A stretch of 64,000 nt of DNA, taken from the NCBI GenBank assembly GCA_903825395.1, contig CAIKAF010000020.1:62001-126000 (forward strand), written 5' to 3'. The first letter of the stretch is position 1. Each line of letters opens with the position of its first letter. Below, in pieces: positions 4,631 through 53,758 of this stretch. The notes below the pieces were generated by a model, which made no database searches, was not told the DNA's origin, and saw only the letters and a program-made list of their open reading frames with translations. This DNA is from an uncultured Flavobacteriales bacterium (GTDB lineage Bacteria; Bacteroidota; Bacteroidia; CAIKAF01). Position numbers and translations under genes: made by a program.

Positions 4631-4785
4631 GGATTGGGCGGCTGACGGGCTTTCCGGGTAAGTCCGCGGAGCAAAACGGGCTGGCGAAAGCCCAAAAGTA
4701 GCTCCTCACGTCGCTCTTTTGGTCTGCCGCCAGCTGCCGTTTTGCTCCTTGCGGGCTTACCTCGTCAATCCCTGCCGCGAGCGGC
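4631..4785 (+). repeat. Structured intergenic repeat, copy A
   Basis: A near-perfect long palindrome between convergent genes, 20 nt after the aminotransferase stop. The outer stem is GGCGGC (4637-4642) with GCCGC near 4774. The main arms 4657-4679 and 4737-4761 are complementary except for one mismatch and a 2-nt bulge. An inner stem is GCTGGCG with CGCCAGC, then CCAAAAG with CTTTTGG. The apex hairpin AGC-TCCTCACGTC-GCT is at 4700-4715. It shares the blocks GACGGGCTTTC and TCAATCCCTGCCGC with copies B, C and E. The flanks TTAGAG and CTCTAA extend the pairing outward. Confidence 0.85.
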
Positions 4786-12741: not shown

Positions 12742-13647
12742 TTAGGGGAACACTTGAATCCACAGCACCATTTCACCAGGCCCGGCGCGTTGTTCCAGGG
12801 CAATGCTGGCCATGGGCGCTTGGGCCCAACCTTTGCCCTTCATGGTTAAATGCCATGCTAGGCCACCGGCTAGTTCCTTCTGAACCAAGCTGTAATTTTC
12901 AGAAAGACAGGATTGGATTCCTTTTATGAGTTCATCGTATTTGGGTTTGATTTGGCCCACACCCTCAACCGGTCCTTTTCCAAATGTAAAGGTCAGAAAG
13001 GGCCCTCCCGGTCCATGAGGACTCCAGGAACCGGGAATGTCAAAAATGAACGGCTGCTGAGGAGGTGTTTTTCCTGTTTTGCGTGCCTCTGCCACCAAAT
13101 TAAAGGCATTTTCAATGGCGACGCAGACATAATTTCCGTATTCAGGAGAAAACGTTTGCTCAAATTTTTGAATGCTTGCTTTCAATGCCGTAAACCTTCT
13201 GCCCAATATTTGATTGGCTTGCATTAAATCCAGAAAAATAAGCCGTTGTTCTGGGGATAAATCCTGATCGGTTTTCACCTCGGGAGGATAGACAAAGACA
13301 CGTTTAGATAGGGACTGCATAACAGGCAAGAGACTGTCTTGTGTTTCCTTAAAAAATACCAATAGGGCTTGTTTGTATTCTGGATTTCCTCGGTAGTCGT
13401 TAGGTATAGATTCCGCACTTTTGGCGAACAACCCATGCATTCGGATGCATTCACGCAGCTGCTGTCCTTGGATTGCGGTATCTTTTTTGCCAAAATCCTG
13501 AATGGCCTGACTGCATTGCCGGACGAAACCTTCAGAGGGTCTGGCAATGGCCCTGGCGTAATCGTAGGGGTGTGCAATTTGGCTGGACAGGGGTTGAACA
13601 AACTTCAATAGGCCAGCAAGACAGATAAAAGTGAAAACCAAACGCAT
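12742..13647 (-). CDS. Secreted protein of unknown function
   Basis: A 301-residue protein with a signal peptide (MRLVFTFICLAGLLKFVQ, cleavage near residue 23). The middle is largely helical and charged. Residues about 195-230 are Gly/Pro-rich (GSWSPHGPGGPFLTFTFG). I recognise no family. A TACCTTTA box, one base off the -7 consensus, ends 5 nt before the start codon. Confidence 0.7.
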   Translation of the reverse strand: MRLVFTFICLAGLLKFVQPLSSQIAHPYDYARAIARPSEGFVRQCSQAIQDFGKKDTAIQGQQLRECIRMHGLFAKSAESIPNDYRGNPEYKQALLVFFKETQDSLLPVMQSLSKRVFVYPPEVKTDQDLSPEQRLIFLDLMQANQILGRRFTALKASIQKFEQTFSPEYGNYVCVAIENAFNLVAEARKTGKTPPQQPFIFDIPGSWSPHGPGGPFLTFTFGKGPVEGVGQIKPKYDELIKGIQSCLSENYSLVQKELAGGLAWHLTMKGKGWAQAPMASIALEQRAGPGEMVLWIQVFP

Positions 13648-13709
13648 GTGTTAAAGGTAGGTATTTTTAATCGGGTCGGCTCAATGCATGCACAGACTAT
13701 TTTGGGAAT

Positions 13710-14789
13710 TCATTTAAGGACACTTGATAAAATCAAGGCAGCAGCTCGATCAAAACATCCAGAATCGCCTAGAATTGTTTTTAATTCAGCATAATCTGCC
13801 AGCACGGCCTGCCGGCGCGGTTCCTCCCGCAAGGCTAGGGCTTCTGCGCGTAGGGAATCGGAATTTAAATCGTTCTGAATTAACTCTTTAACTCCATTTC
13901 TATTCAACAAAAGATTAACCAAAGAAATGTAGGGGACCCGGATTAATCGGCGAGCAATGCCCACAGAAATTGCCGAAGCTTTATAGCAAACCACCTGAGG
14001 GACACCCAGCAAGGCCGTTTCGAGGGTGGCCGTTCCGGAGGCCACCCAAGCCTGTTCAGCGCGTCGAAGGGTCTGCGTGGTTTGATTGTAAACGAGCTCA
14101 AATCCTGCATCAAGAGCAGGTTTGTACAGCGATTCCGGAAGGTGCCGCATGCCACAGACAACTACGGGTACGGGCCAAGATTGTGCTGCTTTTACCATTA
14201 TGGGTAAAATGTGTTGTACCTCAAGACGCCGGCTTCCGGGCAGCAATGCCAACACTGGCGCACCTTCACGGGAGGCGCTGCTGGAATAGCTCAACTCATC
14301 CAGCAATGGGTTGCCAATGTAATCTACGGTAACTCCCATTGAGGCATAAAATTCGGGCTCAAACGGAAAAACCACCAAGCGCCGTCGGGTATAACGGGCC
14401 AATGTTTTTGCTCGGCCGCGCCGCCAAGCCCAAATTTGGGGAGGGATAAAATAGTCCACTGGAATTCCTAGCGCATGGACGCGTTTCATGACTTGAAAAT
14501 TGAAACCGGGATAATCGACAGGAATCACCACATCGGGTTGGTACTTCTGAATATCGGCTACCGTTTCGCGAATGTTCTTAAAAATCTGTGGTAGGTGGGT
14601 AACAATTTCAGCGAAGCCCATGTAATTTTGTTGGGCAAAATGCCGGTGCAGCACCATGCCCGCTTCAGCGCATGCATCTCCTCCCATTCCACGAAATTCT
14701 GCGTCGGGGCACTGCCGCTTGATGGCTCGAATCAAGCCTGCGGCATGTACATCGCCTGATGCTTCACCAGCCACCACATAGAATCTCAT
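13710..14789 (-). CDS. lpxB: Lipid-A-disaccharide synthase
   Basis: A 359-residue LpxB, the GT-B glycosyltransferase that condenses UDP-2,3-diacylglucosamine and lipid X. The N-terminus VVAGEASGDVHAAGL, the block RGMGGDACAEAG, MGFAEI and the donor-site region LLPGSRRLEV are all present. Its start overlaps the 103-residue membrane protein by 4 nt, so surE, the small membrane gene and lpxB form one translationally coupled operon. Confidence 0.94.
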   Translation of the reverse strand: MRFYVVAGEASGDVHAAGLIRAIKRQCPDAEFRGMGGDACAEAGMVLHRHFAQQNYMGFAEIVTHLPQIFKNIRETVADIQKYQPDVVIPVDYPGFNFQVMKRVHALGIPVDYFIPPQIWAWRRGRAKTLARYTRRRLVVFPFEPEFYASMGVTVDYIGNPLLDELSYSSSASREGAPVLALLPGSRRLEVQHILPIMVKAAQSWPVPVVVCGMRHLPESLYKPALDAGFELVYNQTTQTLRRAEQAWVASGTATLETALLGVPQVVCYKASAISVGIARRLIRVPYISLVNLLLNRNGVKELIQNDLNSDSLRAEALALREEPRRQAVLADYAELKTILGDSGCFDRAAALILSSVLK

Positions 14790-21564: not shown

Positions 21565-21716
21565 GGTTGGCCGCGGTAGGGATTGACGCAATTAGCCCGC
21601 AGAGGATGAAGCGGCAGGCAAAACAGAGCTAAAAGAGCGACTTTAGGAGCTACTTTTGGCTCTGATTTTGCCCCGCTGAAGCCCGAGGACTAATGCGGAA
21701 AGCCCGCAACCGCCCT
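21565..21716 (-). repeat. Structured intergenic repeat, copy B
   Basis: Minus-strand copy that begins 22 nt after the stop of the minus-strand MFS gene. Arms 21653-21696 and 21588-21635 pair with a few mismatches, but their sequence differs from copy A. The apex AGC-TCCTAAAGTC-GCT lies at 21636-21651. The shared end blocks GGGCTTTCCG and TCAATCCC are present, with TACCGCGG replacing TGCCGCG. Confidence 0.85.
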
Positions 21717-21738
21717 AAAAGAAGATAAAGCTATCAAC

Positions 21739-29817: not shown

Positions 29818-31185
29818 ATGCGCCTTATCTTATTTCTAATCCTGATTCACAGCCTTTGGGCAGCACAGGGCTTCACTCAGTCCATTGAAAAAATCTATCG
29901 CTTGCCGATTCAACAAGAAATTGCTGGTCCGGTTCGGAAAATTGTTTTGGATGGTTTGCAGGAAGCTCAAGATGTGGGAGCTGACTTAGTCATTATTGAA
30001 ATGGATACGTACGGCGGAGCTGTAGATGCGGCCGACGACATCAGAACGGCCATTTTAAATTCAGATATACCTGTTTGGGTGTTTATTGAAAACAATGCGG
30101 CCTCGGCAGGAGCCTTTATCGCCATTGCATGCGACCAAATTTACATGAAGCCCGGAGCCATTATGGGTGCGGCTACTGTGGTTGGAGCCGATGGGGAAAA
30201 GGTGGACGAAAAATACCAGTCGTTTATGCGGGCTAAAATGCGGGAAACAGCCGTCCAAAATGGCCGTAATCCCTCGATAGCAGAGGCTATGGTGGACGGA
30301 TCGGTGTCGGTTCCCGGGGTAAATGATTCAGGAAAGGTGGTAAGTTTAACCTCAGAAGAAGCCCTCAGGGTGGGATTTAGCGACGGCACCTTTAATTCAT
30401 TGGATGAGCTTCTATCGGCAAAAGACTTGCAAGAGGCAGAACAGGTTGTATTTGATTCAGGTGGAGTCAAAAGCATGGTTTTATTTTTCCTAAGGCCTGA
30501 GGTAAGTGGAATTTTATTGTCTGTGATTCTGCTTGGAATCTTCTTTGAACTCCAATCTCCCGGCTTAGGTTTGCCAGGCTTGGCGGCCCTGATAGCCGCT
30601 ATTCTGTTTTTTATTCCATCTTATTTAGAAGGATTGGCTTTGTATTGGGAAATCCTTCTTTTTTTAGTTGGTTTAGGTTTGCTTGCAGTCGAGATTTTTG
30701 TTCTACCCGGATTTGGTATAGCCGGCATTGCCGGTGGAATTTTAATGCTGCTTTCATTGGTTTTATCCATCACCGAAAACCTGCCGGACAATTCTGAGTT
30801 CGGATTTTCGGCACCCGATCCCAATGGTTTGATTCAATCTGTTTGGGTACTTGTCCTGGCCTTGGCGGGCAGCTTTGGCCTGGCCTTATTTCTGATGAAA
30901 TTTATTCCGAAAACATCCATGTTTAAACGGGTAGCCGTACATTCTGAGTTAAGTTCAAAAAAGGGATTTAAAAGCGCGGCTTCCTTGAAATTAAATTTGG
31001 TAGGGAAAGAGGGCGTGGCGCTGAGCCCATTGCGTCCATCCGGCATGGTTCAAATTGATGGCACAGAGTGGGAAGCACGCTCGCTGTCGGGTTGGATAGA
31101 TCGGGGCAATGGGATTCGAGTTCTTCAACAAGAAAACAACATTTTATTGGTTCAACCCGCATCGGCTGTCAATTCTGACACGTAA
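29818..31185 (+). CDS. NfeD long form: ClpP-like membrane serine protease
   Basis: A 455-residue protein with a signal peptide (about residues 1-21), a ClpP/SppA-class protease domain (about 25-215), four to five hydrophobic segments (about 220-370) and a C-terminal OB-fold NfeD domain (about 385-450). The serine nucleophile sits in NNAASAGAFIA. A lysine in the following MRAKMRETAVQNGR region is the likely partner by analogy with archaeal PH1510. The start ATG 29818 follows the phosphatase stop by 1 nt. The usual flotillin neighbour is missing here; a flotillin lies at 5.4 kb with a short NfeD. Confidence 0.88.
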   Translation: MRLILFLILIHSLWAAQGFTQSIEKIYRLPIQQEIAGPVRKIVLDGLQEAQDVGADLVIIEMDTYGGAVDAADDIRTAILNSDIPVWVFIENNAASAGAFIAIACDQIYMKPGAIMGAATVVGADGEKVDEKYQSFMRAKMRETAVQNGRNPSIAEAMVDGSVSVPGVNDSGKVVSLTSEEALRVGFSDGTFNSLDELLSAKDLQEAEQVVFDSGGVKSMVLFFLRPEVSGILLSVILLGIFFELQSPGLGLPGLAALIAAILFFIPSYLEGLALYWEILLFLVGLGLLAVEIFVLPGFGIAGIAGGILMLLSLVLSITENLPDNSEFGFSAPDPNGLIQSVWVLVLALAGSFGLALFLMKFIPKTSMFKRVAVHSELSSKKGFKSAASLKLNLVGKEGVALSPLRPSGMVQIDGTEWEARSLSGWIDRGNGIRVLQQENNILLVQPASAVNSDT

Positions 31186-36623: not shown

Positions 36624-36667
36624 TTGGACAGGGGCTAGGCAGTTCAAATTTTATTTTAACGGAAGTT

Positions 36668-36816
36668 GGGCGGCAGCCGGGCTTTCAGGGGTAGTCCGCG
36701 GTTGCCAAACGGGCGTCCTTCGGGCTGCGGTGGCTCCTAAAGTCGCCTCCTCGCCGCGCGGCCGCTTCCGTTGGCACCCTTGCGGGCAACCCTCTTCAAT
36801 CCCTGCCGCGGGCGGC
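36668..36816 (+). repeat. Structured intergenic repeat, copy C
   Basis: Lies 44 nt after the DUF4625 stop, between convergent genes. Arms around 36689-36712 and 36768-36792 pair through TTGCCAAACGG with CCGTTGGCA and through the outer GTAGTCCGC with GCGGGCAAC. The apex GGC-TCCTAAAGTC-GCC is at 36732-36747. It ends in TCAATCCCTGCCGC and GGGCGGCC. Confidence 0.85.
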
Positions 36817-38945: not shown

Positions 38946-39089
38946 TGCGCCCCCGATTGAACCGGCAGGCAAGGAAGACCAAACCGTTCGCGGTAGGGGC
39001 GAGGAGGCGACGTCAGGAGCCACCGCAGCCCCATACCGCGCCGGTTTGGGCAACTTGACTACAGGTGAAAGCGGGATTAGGCGCCCCCC
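38946..39089 (-). repeat. Structured intergenic repeat, copy D (most divergent)
   Basis: Minus-strand copy starting 7 nt after the aldehyde dehydrogenase stop. Arms 39028-39049 and 38979-39000 pair (CCAAACCG with CGGTTTGG, GCGGTA with TACCGC, GGGGC with GCCCC). The apex GGC-TCCTGACGTC-GCC is at 39006-39021. The end blocks have changed (CGCTTTCA kept, TTCAATC kept, GGGCGGC replaced by GGGGGGCGCC), yet both outer ends changed together and can still pair (GGGGGCGC with GCGCCCCC). Confidence 0.8.
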
Positions 39090-53596: not shown

Positions 53597-53615
53597 GGTT
53601 TTTTTTTCTTTTTTT

Positions 53616-53758
53616 GGCGGCCGACGGGCTTTCACAGGTTGTCCGCGGCTGCTGCCGGTTGGCCCAGCGGGTTTACGGTGGCTCCTAAAGTCGCCTCCGC
53701 ACCGCGCGGGCCAATCGGCACCAGCCTTGCGGGCAACCTTGCTCAATCCCTGCCGCCC
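53616..53758 (+). repeat. Structured intergenic repeat, copy E
   Basis: Begins 19 nt after the bshC stop, behind a T-rich run (53599-53615). Arms 53637-53665 and 53708-53738 pair over almost their whole length (GGTTGTCCGC with GCGGGCAACC, GCCGGTTGGCCC with GGGCCAATCGGC). The apex GGC-TCCTAAAGTC-GCC is at 53680-53695. Outer GGCGGC and GCCGCC close it. Together with the tRNA gene this fills the 459-nt gap between bshC and the PiT-like gene. Confidence 0.87.

Follow-up and report, generated by a model that had tools for sequence, protein, structure and literature searches.

A 64-kb window of DNA, positions 62001-126000 of contig C20 in a 2.63-Mb genome of an uncultured Flavobacteriales-type genus (G000), raises the question of what purpose is served by a long hairpin that recurs along the chromosome with a different stem sequence each time, and whether it works as RNA or as DNA. 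The initial annotation had placed five such elements in the window, with arms that differ among copies and are complementary within each, and it had read them as a selected RNA or single-stranded DNA structure. This observation is real and is confirmed here. The quoted arms were found, their pairing holds, and a covariance model picks out these five places and no others in the window, with E values from 9e-27 to 6e-16 (all five copies belong to the training set of the model). The family is much larger than five copies, and the interpretation is partly supported. The copies and one place without an element are as follows.

4633 to 4777, plus strand: copy A, full hairpin, apex core 4698-4714; neighbours are an aminotransferase class IV gene (end 4610) and a convergent ORF (end 4803).
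13647 to 13710, no strand: site without an element; the matching place is filled in G001 (L180) and G005 (L040).
21574 to 21718, minus strand: copy B, full hairpin, apex core 21637-21653; neighbours are two minus-strand genes, one MFS and one HlyD-type.
36665 to 36808, plus strand: copy C, full hairpin, apex core 36730-36746; neighbours are a convergent pair, a DUF4625 gene and an HD phosphohydrolase gene.
38948 to 39089, minus strand: copy D, the divergent copy, apex core 39007-39023.
53612 to 53755, plus strand: copy E, full hairpin, apex core 53678-53694; neighbours are bshC and a convergent tRNA-Leu.

The search of the window with the covariance model gives no match at 13647-13710; the place just before the window, C20:61633, is filled by an element. 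Copy D had been described as having altered end blocks. It is indeed divergent, but the blocks are common to all five copies once B and D are read on the minus strand. In the correct orientation, the five copies have in common GCTTTC, GTC, GTNGCTCCTNANGTCGC and TCAATC. The greatest conservation lies not in the end blocks but in the apex GTNGCTCCTNANGTCGC, a feature absent from the initial annotation.

Each copy is composed of one long hairpin of 142-147 nt (about 145), preceded by a T run and followed by an A run. The foot of the hairpin is GGGCGGC/GCCGC. Near the base is a conserved internal loop (GGGCTTTC/TCAATCCC), a second helix (AGTCCGCG/TGCGGGCT) is also conserved, and the structure is closed by a conserved apex, GCGGTGGCTCCTAAAGTCGCCTCC. 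Each copy possesses its own stem sequence, yet the loops and the length are common to all. The distance from the basal GCTWTC to the apex is 48-51 nt in 167 copies (mean 49.9, sd 0.8), with the arms freely variable. Covariation, the absence of which had been named in advance as a result that would speak against a selected structure, is strong: across 97 copies, 92.5% of cells are paired, double-sided changes are found in 30 of 33 pairs, and the score is 0.656, compared with 0.167 +/- 0.007 for shuffled alignments and at most 0.162 when the partners are slid. The alignment was fitted to the structure of the model, so these figures lean its way; the margin is large.

The apex pattern GTNGCTCCTNANGTCGC occurs 93 times in the genome, 51 times forward and 42 times in reverse, and its reversed control does not occur. 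A covariance model (R1) built from 75 copies identifies at least 150 copies in G000, all with E <1e-15. Together, these two results exclude chance. The pattern misses divergent copies, so the copy counts and synteny figures based on it are lower bounds. The sampled copies are intergenic. The family is present in all six sampled species of the genus, in two of them in a divergent form, and the two most divergent congeners have at least 84 copies. A model search of the genome and its relatives, the check that had originally been proposed, yields many copies in both.

An RNA read from one strand should tolerate G.U pairs far better than A.C mismatches. The variable arms, aligned without a wobble preference, contain 36 G.T and 42 A.C mismatches beside about 2,840 Watson-Crick pairs, and one-sided changes between orthologues produced 13 G.T and 32 A.C. 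The orientation relative to transcription is not consistent either: by crude ORF calls, 24 copies are codirectional with their neighbouring genes and 19 are antisense, while 33 are located between convergent genes and 13 between divergent genes. The lack of G.U tolerance and the symmetry of orientation point to DNA, or to a hairpin that is used on both strands. The RNA option of the original proposal is unlikely in its single-strand form. The elements resemble the structured RNAs of Rfam in their covariation but differ from them in G.U tolerance and in orientation. Rfam release 15, searched at gathering and relaxed thresholds, returned no family at threshold and only noise from long microRNA precursors, which agrees with the earlier statement that no named RNA family has such a layout.

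The strongest of the competing explanations, a live one though unlikely, is a hairpin at gene ends that functions in the transcripts of both strands, such as a 3' end structure or terminator that serves two convergent genes in both directions. The use of both transcripts would equalize G.T and A.C mismatches. Gene ends are favoured: a stop codon is mostly no more than tens of bases away, and convergent pairs outnumber divergent ones more than twofold. The predicted folds are also very stable (mean about -86 kcal/mol). However, the hairpin has its T run on the 5' side and its A run on the 3' side, the reverse of what is expected for a two-way intrinsic terminator, and a terminator needs neither conserved loops nor a rod of fixed length. 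The lack of an Rfam match also speaks against this explanation.

The comparison of orthologous sites bears on whether the structure is maintained by selection. All 50 copies first compared in the close relative G003 have an orthologue in G000, and a later comparison of flanks paired 72 of the 93 pattern copies with G003 loci. In 66 orthologous pairs from these two genomes, the element is 98.4% identical and the flank 94.7%, with the element higher in 64 (Wilcoxon p 3e-12). Divergence is 7-8% just outside the element, 4-5% in genes, 0.9-2.7% in the arms, 0.35% in the apex, and 0% in the TCAATCCC block; the copies diverge 3-5 times less than adjacent DNA and also less than the flanking genes. 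At greater distances, element and flank identities are 92.7% vs 84.8% between G001 and G005 and 84.3% vs 74.6% between G005 and G000. Divergent copy D follows the same pattern, its orthologue in G005 (L217) being 84.5% identical compared with 72% in the flanks. Double changes that preserve pairing number 2 vs 61 one-sided changes in the close comparison and 25 vs 34 in the farther one, as expected if mismatches get compensated later. Some more distant orthologous sites agree in their ends and apex but have an entirely different pair of arms. Such wholly different arms could be the result of replacement instead of point-by-point compensation.

The family has also moved. Its copy sets differ between species, the site that is empty at 13647-13710 is filled elsewhere, the nearest paralogues within G000 have a median identity of 90%, and close inverted dimers of 187-609 bp occur, always plus then minus. 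These observations indicate past movement and that most copies are old. For 10 of 48 pattern-based copies in G005, both flanks match a G000 copy, and one flank matches for 9 more (both lower bounds). In G003, no clean empty sites were obtained.

Covariation alone is no proof of selection because template switching, which reportedly both generates and preserves hairpin stems, can keep arms complementary (PMC8794818). The elements could then be passive, old miniature mobile elements that serve the host little or not at all, with one arm copied from the other by template switching so that the two still pair. This explanation, also a live one, is improbable and ranks second among the alternatives. 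In its favour are the variation in copy sets among species, the site filled in G001 and G005, and the resemblance among paralogues. Against it stands a divergence 3-5 times below that of adjacent DNA and below that of genes. Template switching would not lower divergence so far, nor would it keep the conserved unpaired loops, which are not expected to survive through the copying of arms. The order of events, with one-sided changes first and compensation accumulating later, also speaks against it. A selected structure with free arm sequence, as first suggested, is supported by these data, and the low divergence and fixed length are stronger evidence for it than covariation is.

The reading favoured here, with a probability of about one half, is that the elements are long extragenic palindromic DNA repeats that act as a folded site, single-stranded or cruciform, for a putative protein, and that they are of old mobile origin and are now selected in place. 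Whether as single-stranded DNA or by cruciform extrusion, each copy could form a rod whose length is the same throughout the family. The putative protein would recognize both conserved loops, which the arms, as a mere spacer, would keep a fixed distance apart. Copies that differ between species and the close inverted dimers suggest that the family spread in the past by transposition. The present copies are probably held by selection, most likely for chromosome or gene-end organization and not as RNA. No gene family recurs beside the copies, and no trans-acting protein was found among these neighbours.

Neighbouring copies tend to alternate in orientation, a trend that was noticed after the fact. 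Among 158 copies in G000, 86 of 131 adjacent pairs are opposed, vs 65.3 +/- 5.7 expected (p 5e-5), and of the pairs less than 5 kb apart, 25 of 26 are opposed and 1 has the same direction. The same trend is seen in G004 (p 0.014) and G002 (p 0.07), which jointly have 10 opposed pairs and 1 same-direction pair below 5 kb. The alternation may come about because direct repeats that lie close together are lost, or because opposed pairs have a role. A bolder form of the DNA reading, which is rather doubtful, would be a phylum-wide DNA-structure system in which fixed-length hairpins, alternating and spaced roughly every 15 kb, are bound by a putative protein that measures the loop spacing, perhaps organizing the chromosome or pairing neighbours.

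The known kind to which the elements belong is that of extragenic palindromic repeats. REP, BIME and REPIN repeats include the GTAG and CGTC families, and REPs are 20-40 nt long (PMC3733652, PMC3116915). Like these, the elements are multi-copy, extragenic and palindromic, prefer gene ends, and form inverted dimers. Unlike REPs, they are set apart by a hairpin of about 145 nt, conserved internal and apical loops, a fixed rod length, and the conservation of each copy in place beyond that of adjacent genes. They fail two of the tests for REPs: they lack the GT[AG]G or CGTC tag that marks the foot of a REP hairpin, which is 20-65 nt long, and they have no cognate RAYT flanked by the same repeats, as the RAYTs present have other REPs.

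In PMC6006769, atypical secondary structures are described as flanking TnpA-REP subclass 2.6 genes of Bacteroidetes. As described, those structures resemble the present elements in belonging to the same phylum and in being repeated in the genome. The proposal that the elements are the REPs of such a RAYT (TnpA-REP, Y1 transposase) is largely refuted, and the odds against it are long. In its favour, several RAYT-type genes of the genus (L274, L277, L283, L293) have an element 100-430 nt away. However, these genes have short REPs of their own, GGGCAGACCTNCGTGTCTGCCC and GAGACGCACAATCGTGCGTCTC, beside and even inside the gene, and the subclass-2.6-like gene of the genus has such a short REP. The closest homologues, from two other families (G055 and G161; 55% identical), have short REPs and no adjacent element. 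In G005 and G014, both rich in elements, the search for Y1 genes gave no match. RAYTs are therefore unlikely as the cognate enzymes.

Relatives of the DNA repeat extend beyond the genus. The class was sampled with 395 genomes, of which 35 give a model match with an E no higher than 1e-3, in some cases a weak one. When no more than 2 mismatches are allowed, the 5' frame GCTWTCCGCTNNTAGTCCTCG is found in 93 of the 395, at up to 57 copies per genome, and its reversed control gives only one or two matches in a minority of genomes. Many of these relatives are short forms that lack the apex domain. Named carriers include uncultured Flavobacteriales, other Bacteroidetes MAGs, a Sediminibacterium MAG and a Bacteroidales MAG, and shorter relatives are found across Bacteroidia. 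A form of 66-81 nt is carried on plasmids of Bacteroides (conjugative), Phocaeicola and Parabacteroides, and phage records gave no match to it. Two Bacteroides examples are as follows.

pBF9343, 725 to 798: short form, three bases past a recombinase gene, with an ArdC-like gene downstream.
p5482, 31063 to 31128: short form, with an ArdC-like gene downstream.

A weak likeness to the short form is also present near a mobF relaxase on the Moraxella ovis plasmid pMOV1 (L426:3001-3154), with an E of 0.01 that may reflect chance.

Integron attC sites are long imperfect hairpins with variable arms, in which structure counts instead of arm sequence, and the elements are like them in this respect. The weakest explanation is that the elements derive from conjugative DNA, as sites of recombination or initiation on single strands (attC-like or ssDNA-promoter-like), and spread from there to chromosomes. 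It draws on the plasmid form adjoining a recombinase gene upstream of an ArdC-like ssDNA-binding gene and on a few loci where a gene-sized indel stops at the border of an element, but it is very improbable: the RYYYAAC/GTTRRRY boxes of attC are absent from the base, there are no cassette arrays, the chromosomal copies are dispersed in both orientations, favour neither direction along contigs and are linked to neither promoters nor cassettes, and the indel borders may cluster only because the element itself is not lost.

No published description of the repeat was found in the literature by sequence words or by topic. A strongly selected fold with free sequence is rare among bacterial repeats, and these copies are held in place more tightly than adjacent genes. 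The family is large, and the phylum includes common gut bacteria. The short form is present on plasmids of B. fragilis NCTC 9343 and B. thetaiotaomicron VPI-5482, which makes its function directly testable.

Several smaller features were observed at individual loci. Gene-sized indels between G000 and G003 end at an element border at L010:1585-2360 and L128:620-1430, with a methyltransferase-like gene and a permease-like gene, respectively, as their contents. A RAYT-type transposase (YIHQNP) is encoded at L108:1737-2369 in G000 and at L275 in G003, with the short palindromic repeat GGGCAGACCTNCGTGTCTGCCC nearby, and the G003 gene has GGGCAGACCTNCGTGTCTGCCC inserted in frame. At L066:1100-1190 in G003, a remnant of the long element has the short REP GAGACGCACAATCGTGCGTCTC in place of its 5' half and apex, and it adjoins a RAYT gene. 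Another short palindromic repeat, containing CACCCCTACGGGGTTTT, lies in the upstream flank of L028 in G000 and occurs at about 16 places in G003.
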